A stretch of 64,000 bases of DNA from NCBI GenBank assembly GCA_016192075.1, contig JACPUU010000011.1:62001-126000 (forward strand). Direction: 5' to 3'. The notes under the pieces were generated by a model. The model worked only from the letters and a program-made list of their open reading frames with translations, ran no database searches and was not told the DNA's origin. The DNA comes from Bacteroidota bacterium (GTDB taxonomy: Bacteria; Bacteroidota; Bacteroidia; Flavobacteriales_D; Crocinitomicaceae). This document shows, one piece after another, positions 20,134-28,790 of the stretch. The position numbers were made by a program, and so were the translations under genes. The stretch's first letter is position 1. Each line of letters starts with the position of its first letter.

Positions 20134-20460
20134 TTAAAACCAGCTGAAATATTCAAAGCCGGCATAAACACCATCTTCTCTTTTTTCGAGCGGATAATTG
20201 TCCAGGTAAAGACCGCCGCCGCGGCCGGTTTTTAGATCAAACCCATAATGGTGCCAGGGGCAAACGATATAGCCGTTTTCACAACTTGCTTCATCCAGCC
20301 GCATTCCCTGGTGCGGGCACTTGTTTTTTACCAGGAAAAATTCACCCCGGTGTTTCACCAGCAGCAGCGAAAGGTTGTTAAACGAAATCGGGTGAACTTC
20401 TTTCCCGCGCATGCGTTGCTCTATTTCATCCAGTGAACCGGCCAGTTTTAACCATTTCAT
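20134..20460 (-). CDS. Rieske [2Fe-2S] ferredoxin-like protein
   Basis: A protein of about 108 residues with the Rieske cluster motif C-x-H-x16-C-x2-H (CPHQGMRLDEAS...CPWHHYGF). Its small size fits soluble Rieske ferredoxins such as the NirD or BphF type rather than a cytochrome bc subunit. It has no signal peptide or membrane anchor. The ATG at 20460 (MKWLKLAGSLDEIEQ) is preferred; an in-frame start at 20490 is possible. It is a stand-alone gene, so the electron partner is unknown. Confidence 0.85.
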   Translation of the reverse strand: MKWLKLAGSLDEIEQRMRGKEVHPISFNNLSLLLVKHRGEFFLVKNKCPHQGMRLDEASCENGYIVCPWHHYGFDLKTGRGGGLYLDNYPLEKREDGVYAGFEYFSWF

Positions 20461-20722
20461 TTTTGTAGAGAACATACGCTCAAAAATCAATTTTAACCTA
20501 AGGTAGGCTTTTCTGTAACCTTTTTCAAGGAATCGTTATAGAAGCGAATGAGGAGGGTTTGATTGCAGTGGGGACTGCAATCGCTGAGTGATCTACCGCA
20601 GTTATATCCTATAGCGGTGGATTTGAGACGGAGCCGGTTTCTGAAGGATGCTATATCCTTAAGAACCGTGCTGCCAGTCTCAAGTTTCAATACCTGCAAA
20701 ATTTCCTTTGAAGATTTACGTA

Positions 20723-20730
20723 TATCTTTA
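20723..20730 (+). promoter_or_regulatory. -7 promoter box of the large outer-membrane protein gene
   Basis: TATCTTTA is one base off the consensus and lies 18 bp before the preferred GTG start at 20749, giving a very short leader. This argues against the longer reading frame that begins at 20563. Confidence 0.35.
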
Positions 20731-20748
20731 GGATACCTATTCCTCTCT

Positions 20749-23700
20749 GTGAATCTGAATTTACGCTATATCATTGGTGCTGTTTTTTTGCTGTGTTGCT
20801 TGTCTGGTTCAGGTCAGACAGGCATTACAAAAGTTATGGCCGTATCACGTGATACGATTCAGTTTGACACGGTAGCTGTTTACCGCACGGGTTTTGAGCT
20901 GCGCACCGGTGAAACGCTGCTCACCGAAACAGATTATTACCTGGATCCCATACACGCAAAACTGGTGTTTAAAACAGTACCCGTGTCAGAAACTTTTACA
21001 GTGACCTATGAGCGAATGCCGCTTGATTTCAGCATGGCCTTCAATCACAAATCAACCAACCTTATTATTTCAGATACGGTTCAGAATTTTGAACCCTTTA
21101 TTTATTCTGTTTCTACCGGCAATACAACCGATGATTTATTCGGATCATCCAAACTGAATAAACAGGGAAGCATTTCACGCGGTATTACGGTAGGCAACGC
21201 GCAAAGTCTTTCCTTACAATCAACCTTAAACCTGCAGTTAGACGGGCAAATTGCACCCAACCTGTACATGAAAGGATCTATTTCAGATGACAACGTTCCG
21301 TTTCAGCCCGAAGGCAATACCCAAAAACTGCAGGAGTTTGACCAGGTTTACCTGAAAGTATACAATGACAATTTTGCCGTTATTGGCGGTGATTTCTGGC
21401 TGTATAAACCCACCGGCTATTTTCTGAATTATACCAAACGAACACAGGGTGTTTCGCTGGAGGCCTATCACCCGATAACGATAGGCCTGGCTGACGGTAA
21501 AGCAAATCATAAAATAAGCGGTGCTTTTTCGAAGGGCAAATTTTCACGCAACATTGTGCAGGGCATTGAAGGTAACCAGGGACCTTACAAATTAAAAGGT
21601 GCTGAAAACGAAACGTATATTGTTGTGCTTGCCGGAACTGAAAAGGTATACGTAGATGGTAAATTATTAACCCGCGGGCAGGAGTTTGATTACGTGATTG
21701 ATTATAATACCGCTGAAATTACATTTACCGCCAACCAGCTGATCACAAAAGATAAACGGATCATTGTAGAATTTCAATATTCTGACCTCAATTATGCACG
21801 ATCACTTTTTGCTTACAGTGCTGAGTTTAAAACAGACAAAATTCACACCTGGATTAATTTTTATTCAGAGCAGGACGCCAAAAATCAAACCATTCAGCAA
21901 AACCTGACAGACGACAAACGCACCATACTGGCTGATGCCGGTGACAGCCTGCTGGCCGCCTACTCAAACAGCATTGACAGCGTTGGGTTTTACGACGGCC
22001 GTGTACTTTATGCCCTGATTGACAGCCTGGGTTATGATTCTGTATTGGTGTTTACCGTTAATCCTGATTCTGCTTTTTACCAGGCGTCTTTTTTATATGT
22101 AGGTGCGGGGAATGGTGATTACGTTTTTGACCGCTTTACTGCCAATGGAAAAGTGTACAAATGGGTTATGCCAATTGCCGGTGTTTCACAGGGAGAGTAT
22201 GCGCCCATTCAGCTGCTAATTGCTCCGCAGCGCAAACAAATGTATGTGGTAGGGTCAGCCTACCAGTTTAATGAGCACATGCAATCGTCTGTTGAAATAG
22301 CCATGTCTGACTTTGATAAAAACACATTTTCAGCATTGCACAATGATGACAACCGGGGTTATGCCGTTAAATGGAAATGGAAATCAGATCACGGGCTGGG
22401 TGAAAAGTGGACGCTCAGATCAAACGCCAATTTTGAATTTACAGATGTTAACTTTCAACCCATTCAGTGGTTTCGTGATGTAGAATTTGACCGCGACTGG
22501 AATGTGCGAAACCTGCCCTACACCGGACATCAGTTTTTATCTTCAGCAGGGCTGAAACTGGTTGGCAAAAACAACGGTGGTATTGGCTATGATTTTGAAA
22601 ATTTTACCTGGGGCACAGATTATACCGGGTACCGGAATAACCTCGATATCAACCTGCACAAAAAGGGGTTTTCATACCTGGCAGATGCCTCCTGGCTTAT
22701 CTCTTCAGGTACGCAAAAAACATCTTACATGCGCCACAATCAAACCATTTCACACAACAGCCGGTTTATCAAAATTGGTTTTGAAGACATTCACGAATGG
22801 AATGAAAAAAAGACCGACAGCACGTCGTATCTTTCTACAGCATCGTATCGGTTTTATGACTGGAAAGTATCACTCTCCACATCTGATTCTATCCAAAACA
22901 AAATTGGTATTTACTACCGTGAGCGGTATGACTGGTTCAGTGATTCAACACGCCTGAATCAGGCCACACGCGCACAAAATATTGGCATTGAATCTGACCT
23001 GGGAAGAAATCCAAATTCCAATTTACGCATCACGCTCAACTACCGTTTTCTGGATGTACTTGACACCACCCTTTTTACCGGACAACCCGAAAATACGCTG
23101 CTGGGAAGGCTTGAGCACATGGCCCGTTTGTGGAAAGGTGCTGTACTTGCTACTACATTTTACGAAGCCGGATCAGGCCTTGAACTTAAACGTGAATTTA
23201 TTTACCTGGAGGTAAACCCCGGACAAGGTACCTACACCTGGATTGATTATAACGGTGATGGTATAAAAGATTTGGGTGAATTTGAAATTGCCGTTTTTAC
23301 AGATCAGGGAAATTACATTCGTGTTTTCATTCCAACCAATACCTATGTGCGCACCTACTCCAACCAATTCTCAACCAGTTTGATTTTAAGTCCTGAAAGG
23401 CTCTGGAATTCATCCAAAGGAATAAAGAAAATTCTGTCCCGTTTCAGCAATCAAACCATCTATAAAATCAACCGGAAAACAAGCTACGAAAATAACCTGG
23501 AGGCGTTGAATCCGTTTTTATATTCCATTGCAGATACCAGCCTGGTTGCCATGTCTACATCATTCAGAAATACCTTTTATTTCAACAAAACCAGTTCTGT
23601 TTTTGGTGCTACCTATTCGTACCAGGAAAATGGCTCCAAAATTTTATTGTCAAACGGGTTTGATTCACGCCTGCACACCTTTCATGACATGCGGCTGCGA

Positions 23701-24195
23701 TGGAATATCAGCAAAGTATATAACCTGCGTATTAATGGCTTACTCGGCCGCAAAAAAAGTTCAAGTGACTACGCTGCCGGCCGTGACTATTTCATTGAAT
23801 ATTTTGAAATTGAGCCGGCTTTTTCATACCAGCCAGGCACGGCATTCAGGATTGGTATTACCGGAAAATACACTGAAAAAGCCAACAACTCTGACCTTGC
23901 TGAAACCGCCATTTTGCGTAACGTGGGACTTGAATTGCGTTTGAACCAGGCACAAAAGGGCAGTTTTTCAGCACAGCTGAATTTCATTGTTATTTCCTAT
24001 AACGGTAACACCAATTCATCCCTTGCGTTTGAAATGCTGGAGGGTTTGAAACCGGGTAATAACCTGACCTGGGGCATATCTTACCAACGCAAGGTTGCAC
24101 AAAATTTACAGTTGAATTTTACGTACACCGGGCGTAAATCAGAGGGCAATAATGCCATTCATTCAGGTGGAATGGAGCTGCGGGCATTTTTCTGA
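20749..24195 (+). CDS. very large outer-membrane beta-barrel-like protein of unknown function
   Basis: About 1148 residues from a GTG at 20749, chosen because it gives a signal peptide (NLRYIIGAVFLLCCLSGSGQ); the frame is open back to 20563 without one. The N-terminal quarter holds repeated beta-rich domains (YVDGKLLTRGQEFDYVIDYN, as in plug- or usher-like Bacteroidota proteins). The long C-terminal part has aromatic-rich alternating strands ending in GGMELRAFF, an outer-membrane insertion-type terminus. A calcium-loop-like DYNGDGIKDLGEFE occurs near residue 835. No enzyme motif is seen. The architecture recalls SprA-like envelope proteins, but I cannot assign it. Confidence 0.7.
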   Translation: MNLNLRYIIGAVFLLCCLSGSGQTGITKVMAVSRDTIQFDTVAVYRTGFELRTGETLLTETDYYLDPIHAKLVFKTVPVSETFTVTYERMPLDFSMAFNHKSTNLIISDTVQNFEPFIYSVSTGNTTDDLFGSSKLNKQGSISRGITVGNAQSLSLQSTLNLQLDGQIAPNLYMKGSISDDNVPFQPEGNTQKLQEFDQVYLKVYNDNFAVIGGDFWLYKPTGYFLNYTKRTQGVSLEAYHPITIGLADGKANHKISGAFSKGKFSRNIVQGIEGNQGPYKLKGAENETYIVVLAGTEKVYVDGKLLTRGQEFDYVIDYNTAEITFTANQLITKDKRIIVEFQYSDLNYARSLFAYSAEFKTDKIHTWINFYSEQDAKNQTIQQNLTDDKRTILADAGDSLLAAYSNSIDSVGFYDGRVLYALIDSLGYDSVLVFTVNPDSAFYQASFLYVGAGNGDYVFDRFTANGKVYKWVMPIAGVSQGEYAPIQLLIAPQRKQMYVVGSAYQFNEHMQSSVEIAMSDFDKNTFSALHNDDNRGYAVKWKWKSDHGLGEKWTLRSNANFEFTDVNFQPIQWFRDVEFDRDWNVRNLPYTGHQFLSSAGLKLVGKNNGGIGYDFENFTWGTDYTGYRNNLDINLHKKGFSYLADASWLISSGTQKTSYMRHNQTISHNSRFIKIGFEDIHEWNEKKTDSTSYLSTASYRFYDWKVSLSTSDSIQNKIGIYYRERYDWFSDSTRLNQATRAQNIGIESDLGRNPNSNLRITLNYRFLDVLDTTLFTGQPENTLLGRLEHMARLWKGAVLATTFYEAGSGLELKREFIYLEVNPGQGTYTWIDYNGDGIKDLGEFEIAVFTDQGNYIRVFIPTNTYVRTYSNQFSTSLILSPERLWNSSKGIKKILSRFSNQTIYKINRKTSYENNLEALNPFLYSIADTSLVAMSTSFRNTFYFNKTSSVFGATYSYQENGSKILLSNGFDSRLHTFHDMRLRWNISKVYNLRINGLLGRKKSSSDYAAGRDYFIEYFEIEPAFSYQPGTAFRIGITGKYTEKANNSDLAETAILRNVGLELRLNQAQKGSFSAQLNFIVISYNGNTNSSLAFEMLEGLKPGNNLTWGISYQRKVAQNLQLNFTYTGRKSEGNNAIHSGGMELRAFF

Positions 24196-24261: not shown

Positions 24262-25425
24262 TTACAATTTCACAATCTTTTGCGAAATGCCGTCGTAGGT
24301 AAGCAGGTAGATGCCTTTTGACAGAGAAGAAAGATCTAATAACGTGTTGTGATTTACAATTTGTTTTTCCAGCACAAGCTGGCCTGACAGATTCATTATC
24401 CGCAGCATTGAACCAGGATTTTCAGTACTGAAACTGAGTTGATCGTTTACCGGATTGGGGTAATATTTAAACGCTGTTTGCAACTTAGTTTGCAGCCCGA
24501 CATCTCCATTCACTGAAATATAATTGGTGTAAAGCAACTGATCATTTCTGGACTCAAAATAGCCTACCTGAATATCTACATCTGTTACAGCAGTGGGTGT
24601 CAGCAGTACCTCATACCGCTCACCGGGAAAAACAAAAAGTGTATCACAGGCATACGGCACCGGCAAAATGCGCCCGTCACTGAGGTACGCAATGGCATTC
24701 AATTCTTCGGGAAAAATGTAACGTGTTTTAGAATACCCCATGCTGCTCAGCCGCAATAAAACAGAATCGCCGGGATAGGCTGTAACCTGGTGATCCGGAT
24801 CCGTCGTCAGTGAATTTCCGGAGAGTCCGTTGATCATAAAATAATCCATCACCAACAGGTTAAGCGGGCCTGGACTCAGCGGATTTTCATTCAGTGATTT
24901 GTCCATATCCGTTGCCAGAAAAACAAATTCATTCTGATATGACGGGCCGCCCGGGTAAATTAAATTTTGCTCCGGAAAATTCTTTACCACAATAACGCCA
25001 TACATACCCATTGTCAGGTGCAGGGTTGTTAATACGTGACAGTGGTATAAAAAGGATCCGGTGTTTTTGGCTACAAAGTGATATACTGTCGAGTCCCAGG
25101 GGTCCACTGCCGGAGAGGTTGCAGGTACACCATCTTCAGACGTGCTTACATCGAGCCCATGCAAATGAATGGTGTGGTCTTCAGGTGACATGTTGTGAAA
25201 ATGAATTTCAACCGTATCACCCAGGTTAAATTCCAAAACTGGTCCGGGTAATTGTGCCTGGTATGCGCCCGATGGCTTAATAATTCCATACCCCCACATT
25301 TCCACAGAACCGCCGCCATCCAGAAAATGCGTTTCATTCATTTCAGCAGCCAGGTGCACAATTTTTGTTTGTGAATACCCGGCCAGGCCAGCCGCTAAAA
25401 TGATATGAAGCAAAAAATATCTCAT
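24262..25425 (-). CDS. secreted multicopper-oxidase subunit with T9SS sorting domain (contains the type-1 copper site)
   Basis: A 387-residue exported protein (signal peptide MRYFLLHIILAAGLAGYSQ). Cupredoxin domain 1 (about 25-150) has IHLHG (His87, His89) and YHCHVLTTLHLTMGM (His128, Cys129, His130, His136 and Met), that is two HxH motifs plus a type-1 copper set. A second cupredoxin fold without visible ligands spans about 150-305. A T9SS type A C-terminal domain follows (YYPNPVNDQLSFS to KGIYLLTYDG). It overlaps the upstream gene by 4 bp, and that gene supplies the other two HxH motifs. Substrate unknown. Confidence 0.75.
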   Translation of the reverse strand: MRYFLLHIILAAGLAGYSQTKIVHLAAEMNETHFLDGGGSVEMWGYGIIKPSGAYQAQLPGPVLEFNLGDTVEIHFHNMSPEDHTIHLHGLDVSTSEDGVPATSPAVDPWDSTVYHFVAKNTGSFLYHCHVLTTLHLTMGMYGVIVVKNFPEQNLIYPGGPSYQNEFVFLATDMDKSLNENPLSPGPLNLLVMDYFMINGLSGNSLTTDPDHQVTAYPGDSVLLRLSSMGYSKTRYIFPEELNAIAYLSDGRILPVPYACDTLFVFPGERYEVLLTPTAVTDVDIQVGYFESRNDQLLYTNYISVNGDVGLQTKLQTAFKYYPNPVNDQLSFSTENPGSMLRIMNLSGQLVLEKQIVNHNTLLDLSSLSKGIYLLTYDGISQKIVKL

Positions 25426-26276
25426 GGCATTATTTCAATCATATTCATCATTCCACCCGGATAGACACCATTGGTTGTTATGGTAATCATGTTGTGGTTA
25501 TGCACCATATACATACCCGGCTGATCAGGTACCAGCAACAACAGCATTACTTCACCAACCACCACCGGAAAACTGTCTTTGGTCCAACCGGTCAGGTGTG
25601 TGTTTTTTTCAGTGCTGAGTATTTTTACATGATACCCGTGAAAATGTAAATTGTGATGCATGTTGCCTGAATTCACCACAGCAATTACAAGGCTGTCTCC
25701 AACCATCTGGTAGATGTATGAAAGCGTGTCAGAATCAAGATCAGGCGGAACTTTCATGTTAATGGAAAAAATATCGGGGGTATAATCCAACGGAATTGTT
25801 GTCTCGGTTCCGGCATCAATTTTATCTGTCAGCGTATCCTGCTGCTCAAACAAATTCCAGTAATAACGGGCATAATTTTCATACCCTACCAGAATCATCG
25901 ATGATGCTCCCAAAAGCTTACCACCCGGACGATCTGAATAAAACCGGTACACCCCGTTTGCCGGAAAACTCAGAAAAAAATCATCACTGCCACCGGCTGC
26001 AATCACATTACCTGATTCAATTATACCATCAATTGTAAACGTATGTTCAACAACATCATTATTAATGACGTGCAGCAGCAGTTCATCACCGCTGTTTAAT
26101 TCAAAAATTTTGTTTTGTTTGAAGAAATTGGCTGAGTCATTAAAAACACAGGTTTGAAGGGTATAATCTACCACGGTTAAACTACCGCTGTTGATATACA
26201 ACGTGTCCAGAATAACAGTTGTGCGCCCGGTTAAGGAAACCAGAAACAGTGCTATGGAGAAGAAAACCAATTTCAT
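25422..26276 (-). CDS. second multicopper-oxidase-like subunit (two HxH motifs, no type-1 Cys)
   Basis: A 284-residue exported protein (signal peptide MKLVFFSIALFLVSLTGR; ATG at 26276 preferred over upstream starts). The N-terminal cupredoxin-like domain lacks ligands. The C-terminal domain has HHNLHFHGYH (His208, 211, 213), which resembles the third-domain laccase motif HPxHxHG, and VHNHNMITI (His259, His261), where the usual type-1 Cys of HCH is Asn. Alone it could not bind a blue copper. Its stop overlaps the next gene's ATG, so the pair is co-translated and probably forms one enzyme. Confidence 0.7.
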   Translation of the reverse strand: MKLVFFSIALFLVSLTGRTTVILDTLYINSGSLTVVDYTLQTCVFNDSANFFKQNKIFELNSGDELLLHVINNDVVEHTFTIDGIIESGNVIAAGGSDDFFLSFPANGVYRFYSDRPGGKLLGASSMILVGYENYARYYWNLFEQQDTLTDKIDAGTETTIPLDYTPDIFSINMKVPPDLDSDTLSYIYQMVGDSLVIAVVNSGNMHHNLHFHGYHVKILSTEKNTHLTGWTKDSFPVVVGEVMLLLLVPDQPGMYMVHNHNMITITTNGVYPGGMMNMIEIMP

Positions 26277-28163: not shown

Positions 28164-28790
28164 TTATTTACAGGTTTTTACCAATGTTGTTTTAACCGCC
28201 ACATCAACGGTCGACCAGAATTTGTTAACTCCGTCAGGACCGGTGTGTTTTTCAGCACAAACCACGCTCAGTGAATCAAGCGATGTCTGCGCATTAAAAT
28301 CAACAATGTCAACCGTGGTTGTTACCGTAATTGTTTCACCATCTACCGTAACTTCACCGTTGTAATCTTTGGTTACACCATTCATGGTTATAGCTATGGA
28401 TGCACCTGATGCAGAAAGCGAATTTACAGTTCCGGTAATGGAAGCTGTTTCAACCATGTTTCCAAAAAAGCTGTTTTTTACTTTTCCGTCGCGCACGGGA
28501 TCTTGTGAATTGACGGATGCTACAGGAATATCAAACGTTGCACCGGTTAATACGGCAAACATGTCTGATGCACTGTCTTTTGCAGTCACATTAATTTCAT
28601 TAAATGTACCATTTACCGCTATTTTTTCTGTCAGTTTAAATGCTGTCCACGTAAGTTCAGTGGATGAAGAATCGTATGAATAGGTACAAACCTCAGCCGT
28701 ATCTGCTGCCACAGTTGATTCAGACTCGCCGCCACCGCATGACGCCAGAGCAAAACCAAGAAGACCAAAATAATAAATTGATTTTTTCAT
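28164..28790 (-). CDS. YceI-like lipoprotein
   Basis: A 208-residue lipoprotein (MKKSIYYFGLLGFALASC, lipid-modified Cys18, then a GGGESES linker). The rest is a YceI-type lipocalin-like barrel: TWTAFKLTEKIAVNGTFNEI near the start, AVLTGATFDIPVASVNSQDPVRDGKVKNSFFG with the family DPxRDxK segment, and a C-terminal DFNAQTSLDSL stretch. YceI proteins bind isoprenoids or other hydrophobic ligands. Single gene with its own terminator. Confidence 0.85.
   Translation of the reverse strand: MKKSIYYFGLLGFALASCGGGESESTVAADTAEVCTYSYDSSSTELTWTAFKLTEKIAVNGTFNEINVTAKDSASDMFAVLTGATFDIPVASVNSQDPVRDGKVKNSFFGNMVETASITGTVNSLSASGASIAITMNGVTKDYNGEVTVDGETITVTTTVDIVDFNAQTSLDSLSVVCAEKHTGPDGVNKFWSTVDVAVKTTLVKTCK

Follow-up and report, generated by a model that had tools for sequence, protein, structure and literature searches.

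Gene pair and copper-ligand motifs

The window analyzed here, a stretch of 64,000 nucleotides from a Bacteroidota genome assigned to the Crocinitomicaceae (contig JACPUU010000011.1), carries on its minus strand two neighboring open reading frames, each translating into a protein with two cupredoxin domains. Gene A (25422–26276), the first in the reading direction, encodes a protein of 284 aa (P1) when translated from the ATG at 26276; domain 1 contains no copper site, domain 2 contains half of a trinuclear site, and there is no sorting domain. Gene B (24262–25425) comes next and encodes a protein of 387 aa (P2), in which domain 1 combines a type-1 copper site with half of a trinuclear site, domain 2 is ligand-free, and a Type IX secretion system (T9SS) sorting domain occupies the C-terminus (residues 322–384, 24274–24462, minus strand; PF18962, E 3.7e-11). 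As the original prediction stated, the two frames overlap by 4 bp (25422–25425, minus strand), sharing an ATGA in which the stop of A meets the start of B, an arrangement that suggests translational coupling. Pfam searches placed Cu-oxidase_2 at residues 191–269 of A, near the protein end, and, in B, Cu-oxidase_3 at 54–149 and Cu-oxidase at 191–281, followed by the sorting domain (Por_Secre_tail). Each protein starts with a hydrophobic N-terminal stretch, modeled by AlphaFold2 as a helix (residues 2–14 in A, 2–17 in B).

Other genes in the vicinity include one for a 1210-aa protein (20563–24195, plus strand), convergent with gene B and without a Pfam match at E 0.001, as well as genes for a small Rieske-domain protein (20134–20490, minus strand) and a YceI-like protein (28164–28790, minus strand), both a few kb from the pair. 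Neither of the latter two stood out among the neighbors of the pairs in relatives.

The half-site in domain 2 of A spans residues 208–262 (25491–25655, minus strand) and consists of H208, H211-F-H213-G, and H259-N-H261-N. Its counterpart in B, residues 84–141 (25003–25176, minus strand), comprises H84, H87-L-H89, H128-C129-H130, H136, and M141. The distribution of the HxH motifs that had been proposed, HFH and HNH in A and HLH and HCH in B, is thus correct in every residue named, and H84, H136, and M141 are additional ligands that, around C129, make up a complete type-1 site. Neither chain holds all four HxH motifs: domain 1 of B contributes two and domain 2 of A the other two, and four are found only in the pair. 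The type-1 site is restricted to domain 1 of B, and hence to domain 1 in the pair as a whole. One detail of the original prediction has to be withdrawn, namely, that HNH of A is an HCH motif with Cys replaced by Asn: of 74 aligned sequences, 50 have Asp and 24 have Asn between the two histidines, and the three one-gene type-C enzymes that we read show HDH at this position of domain 2.

Conservation of the copper ligands

Homologous loci were collected in two ways, by a motif-free family search, from which 29 relatives were fetched as loci, and by retrieval of named loci with two motifs of A, keeping the best 80 of 162 relatives. The invariance of A among the named loci is therefore partly built in, but the alignments of 27 pairs from the family search are free of this bias and show the same invariant residues, that is, the four cluster histidines of A (H211, H213, H259, and H261) and all eight ligands of B. 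Given this invariance, the pattern is more than a chance occurrence. In larger alignments, all 81 rows of A retain the four histidines, and all 78 rows of B retain the eight ligands, including the type-1 ligands H84, C129, H136, and M141; A has no type-1 site.

The smaller alignments include 27 of 30 pairs, leaving out L064, which is truncated, and L054 and L057, which by eye are close to L053; the alignments used for column statistics include 74 of 78, without L082, which has an odd start, and without L113, L117, and L133, which contain N. Some organisms are represented in both sets of loci, and of 100 pairs in total, 77 were left below 90% identity.

Fold, homology and paralogy

AlphaFold2 models of both proteins (mean pLDDT 93.9 for A and 91.1 for B) contain two cupredoxin domains each, the arrangement of two-domain oxidases. 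The best match among solved structures is 2zwn_B for A (Z 23.5, rmsd 2.9, 250 aligned residues) and 2zwn_A for B (Z 29.4, rmsd 2.2, 265 aligned). Because copper nitrite reductase ties with 2zwn_B for the fold of A (Z 23.2), the fold was not used on its own. Sequence profiles gave 3g5w as the best match for B (E 5.7e-41 over residues 55–274) and 2zwn for A (E 1.7e-16). Against the NirK profile TIGR02376, B scored 53.2 bits, below the cut-off of 296.3, and A was not listed. By Pfam and the model of B, neither chain has a third cupredoxin domain or a type-1 site in such a domain.

When the profiles of A and B were compared with each other, they aligned over 248 columns at 14% identity (probability 99.5, E 1.9e-22). 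On this profile evidence, A and B are paralogues, both of them two-domain proteins and not fragments. This relationship separates two components of the claim that an oxidase is split over two genes: the complementary halves are there, but they did not come from a single oxidase cut in two. The models show pLDDT dips near both half-sites (71–73 at residues 261–280 of A, 68–78 at 91–110 of B), which might faintly hint at loops that are missing a partner.

Reciprocal loss of ligands

Applying the pairing from the A–B profile comparison to the 74-row alignments, we identified the residues of each protein that occupy the ligand positions of the other. In B, the equivalents of H208, H211, and H213 of A are, respectively, mainly Asn, Val, or Thr; Ile, Thr, Val, or His (His in 7 of 74); and Pro (73 of 74), and the profile alignment does not extend to the equivalents of H259 and H261. 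Within domain 2 of B, position 179 is the only one with His or Cys in at least 30 of the 74 rows (His in 31). Conversely, the equivalents in A of H87, H89, H128, C129, H130, H136, and M141 of B are mostly non-ligand residues in the 74 rows. The loss is not perfectly clean, as 11 of the 74 rows of A have His at the equivalent of H128, in addition to the 7 rows of B with His at the equivalent of H211. Separately, H78 of A, the equivalent of the first type-1 ligand of B, H84, is retained in 69 of 74 rows, alone among the positions of B-type ligands.

Conservation in general tracks the competent domains. Columns with a single residue in at least 90% of the 74 rows number 28 of 120 in domain 2 of A and 36 of 131 in domain 1 of B, compared with 4 of 113 in domain 1 of A and 13 of 141 in domain 2 of B. 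The best explanation for these patterns appears to be the duplication of a type-C two-domain oxidase, after which each copy gave up a different half of the active site. The pair seems to be a clean example of duplicates that degenerated in complementary ways, down to single metal ligands.

Distribution and linkage of the two genes

The original prediction had proposed looking for homologous pairs that occur together, and such pairs were readily found. Among 200 genomes of the same family, A and B were each detected in 47, and 46 genomes had both; the one case of A alone and the one case of B alone are contig ends, and one of the 46 (G456) actually represents a one-gene type-C oxidase. Among 299 genomes of the same order, 83 contained A at E <= 1e-49, 82 contained B at E <= 1e-45, and 81 contained both; at E <= 0.001, A matched in 96 of the 299, 13 of these being weak matches to other oxidases. 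The three mismatches in the order sample comprise a genome in which a contig end cuts B (G601), one in which both genes are broken (G604), and one with B only (G696). In a phylum sample of 395 genomes, which includes few close relatives and was searched with a single-sequence query, a full-length match to A was found only in the genome of the window. The best 80 of the 162 named relatives mostly carry Flavobacteriales or Crocinitomicaceae labels or belong to Brumimicrobium, Lishizhenia, Fluviicola, or Crocinitomix, and a few are labeled Aureispira, Saprospirales, or Cytophagales.

In all 29 loci fetched from the family search, A is followed directly on the same strand by B, with a spacing between -4 and +5. 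The same holds for 77 of the 80 named loci; in the other three the contig breaks off, in one case within B. Of these 77 named loci, 47 have a spacing of -4 and 15 a spacing of -1. These counts refer to the 29 + 80 loci on which adjacency was scored by script, not to the whole order sample. One genome (G412) has three copies of A and three of B, each A beside a B. In L117, a run of N at the A/B junction makes the spacing unmeasurable, and an apparently continuous A–B frame was rejected on account of the same run.

No frame containing both A and B was seen among the sequences analyzed. Eight frames of 715–764 aa that match A twice were considered as fusions and rejected: the four that we read are three-domain oxidases with a C-terminal extension, and the other four have the same profile-match pattern. 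All eight (L183–L190) are single proteins that combine a three-domain oxidase with a long C-terminal part, and the four read resemble what we take to be a fusion of CopA with the outer-membrane barrel CopB.

A lone homologue of the A or B family with a complete ligand set was sought and none was found, so the refutation that had been feared did not appear. Of the candidates, G447 and G592 proved to be contig ends, and G456, G084, and G356 have one-gene type-C oxidases with complete sets, which belong to neither the A nor the B family. G696 (locus L219) is the sole B without A among the 82 order genomes with B; no A was found genome-wide at E <= 0.001 or in the 3.5 kb upstream, the B frame, by reading, has no ATG at the start position of its relatives, and two flanking genes resemble neighbors of the pair in relatives. 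It appears that A was deleted in this genome or that the contig was misjoined. In G604 (L220), A and B are both broken, as expected if the genes are useful only together, or if the assembly is noisy.

Within the genome of the window, no second A was found, and apart from B, Cu-oxidase_3 matches only a three-domain oxidase of 572 aa, which leaves no alternative partner in the genome. The tail of this 572-aa oxidase, encoded on contig C16, matches the sorting domain of B, and it adjoins another protein with a similar tail.

Clustering of the flanking frames in 75 of the 77 loci (two were dropped where the gene picker did not recover A) yielded, apart from the pair, no cluster shared by more than 10 loci and no clue to a substrate. 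At four loci (L204–L207, from G057, G202, G174, and G245), we observed a B-like two-domain protein of 313–320 aa with no sorting tail and no copper-ligand motifs, adjoining a 142–188 aa protein with a CSMCQHGACQ motif and a gene that is presumably tyrosinase-like. Possibly, this B-like protein is a pseudo-cupredoxin derived from a multicopper oxidase that serves a type-3 copper enzyme.

Possible export of the pair

As originally proposed, only the second protein has a sorting domain. The PF18962 match in B scores 43.6 bits over a cut-off of 27, marking B as a putative T9SS cargo, and among the relatives a match at E <= 0.01 is found in 66 of 74 B proteins and 0 of 74 A proteins. Because the tail is confined to B, a shared surface location would require A to be exported as a passenger. 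According to PMC9251779, the T9SS transports proteins in folded form. We give roughly even odds to the possibility that A crosses the outer membrane as a passenger on B. The literature searched contained, among the matches listed, no T9SS precedent for a heteromeric passenger, and none was found in the accessible part of a paper on the translocon (PMC10994853).

A probable heteromeric oxidase and its alternatives

Taken together, these results favor, with a probability of about 0.8, the reading that A and B form one heteromeric oxidase, in which the trinuclear cluster would lie between domain 2 of A and domain 1 of B and would be fed by the type-1 copper of B. An obligate heteromer derived from a type-C oxidase is our best reading of the sequences. 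The heteromer with half a cluster per subunit that had been predicted from the window alone gains from reciprocal ligand loss in paralogues, invariant ligands, coupled genes, and co-inheritance; copper binding, oxidase activity, a physical complex, and co-export are what we infer from these sequence patterns.

In the proposed mechanism, A and B would each reach the periplasm by means of their own putative signal peptides and assemble there, and the complex would then cross the outer membrane via the T9SS sorting domain of B, taking A along. The type-1 copper in domain 1 of B (H84, C129, H136, and M141) would take up electrons from the substrate and pass them via C129 to H128 and H130. The trinuclear cluster, where O2 would be reduced to water, would be composed of H87, H89, H128, and H130 of B together with H211, H213, H259, and H261 of A, leaving purely structural roles for domain 1 of A and domain 2 of B. 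The electron path and the ligand chemistry follow from established knowledge of multicopper oxidases. By analogy, the substrate is expected to be laccase- or metallo-oxidase-like and to be met at the cell surface.

A homotrimer of A or of B alone would have no complete cluster, as each chain is without one half-site. For the pair, we favor a stoichiometry of 1:1, since domain 1 of A is hardly conserved (the 4 of 113 columns noted above) and so gives no indication that it closes a ring. Covariation between A and B provides no evidence for a complex: the block of domain 2 of A and domain 1 of B held 140 of the top 400 couplings versus 67.9 expected, but 20 within-clade shuffles of the pairings matched this (142–164), and one of the two clades, analyzed separately, went in the opposite direction, with 1 of 400 in the block and no enrichment.

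Among the alternatives, the two proteins could have separate jobs, B as a surface blue-copper protein for electron transfer, with type-1 copper only, and A as a protein that binds copper through its histidines but builds no oxidase cluster, such as one that donates copper to B. That B has a complete type-1 site on its own and that no conserved neighboring gene points to a substrate would both sit well with such a division. It leaves unexplained, however, why H87, H89, H128, and H130 of B are invariant (78/78) when a type-1 site does not need all of them, and why A has the complementary four at the positions of the homologous enzymes; we regard it as unlikely. We see only a slim chance that A and B meet solely in the periplasm, with B exported and A staying behind, for instance, after loading copper into B, in which case a shared cluster would not be how B operates at the surface. 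The confinement of the T9SS tail to B (66/74 versus 0/74) is what such a scheme would predict, but the histidines of A are invariant at catalytic positions, and a passenger is conceivable for a system that moves folded proteins (PMC9251779).

The idea that the two frames are artefactual, either a single gene interrupted by a sequencing error or a pair of pseudogenes, finds an echo in the single other genome in which both genes are broken (G604), but nothing in the window speaks for it. The same two-gene layout recurs in 29 of 29 loci and in 77 of 77 where it could be assessed, each gene with its own N-terminal stretch, and this conserved layout makes an artefact very unlikely, to the point of being negligible.

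Comparison with known multicopper oxidases

Three-domain oxidases, such as laccase, ascorbate oxidase, and CueO, build one cluster from four HxH motifs and have a ligand-free middle domain. In heterodimeric fungal laccases, the small subunit is not known to be a cupredoxin half-site. These fungal enzymes resemble A and B in that an enzyme named laccase contains two different chains. The three-domain oxidases differ in being single chains with the type-1 copper in domain 3, as is stated for Fet3p; here, this copper is assigned to domain 1 of B.

The MnxEFG complex of Bacillus sp. PL-12 is, like the proposed A–B enzyme, a multi-subunit multicopper oxidase. According to PMC5622069, MnxG is the multicopper oxidase, and MnxE and MnxF are accessory proteins without similarity to characterized ones. 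The sharing of a cluster between chains is well established: two-domain multicopper oxidases are trimers, with the trinuclear cluster held by residues from two protomers, and in a type-B relative, domain 1 of a monomer and domain 2 of its neighbor supply these residues (both from PMC13151041). The original suggestion that the arrangement is not a standard one therefore stands only in part: a chain-shared cluster is normal in two-domain oxidases, but its derivation from two different genes is unusual. The literature searched, which lies mostly outside subscription journals, contained, among the matches listed, no multicopper oxidase with a cluster from two gene products. What is known is clusters shared between chains; their sharing between two different genes with reciprocal loss was not seen in this literature.

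More tentatively, and with somewhat less than even odds, the full scenario would be that duplication turned a homotrimer with a cluster at each interface into an asymmetric enzyme by reciprocal loss, and that the tail-less subunit rides through the outer membrane as a passenger. If so, the pair would have attained an asymmetry like that reached by fusion in three- and six-domain oxidases, bearing on the origin of these enzymes from two-domain ones, and it would provide a natural system for testing whether the T9SS can transport a metalloenzyme in assembled form, with the copper spectra of the pair as a readable assay for both subunit assembly and export of the complex. Screens built on one-gene enzymes could miss half-site proteins of this kind.

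The comparison that defines the pair most closely is with the type-C one-gene oxidases, represented by the Nitrosomonas europaea blue copper oxidase (3g5w) and a metagenome laccase (2zwn). These have two cupredoxin domains with type-1 copper in domain 1 and two HxH motifs per domain, the HDH of domain 2 being followed by a stretch resembling NG-x-YPGG. Here, in contrast, two paralogous genes provide the halves, each chain has one competent domain, and one of the two chains carries a T9SS tail.
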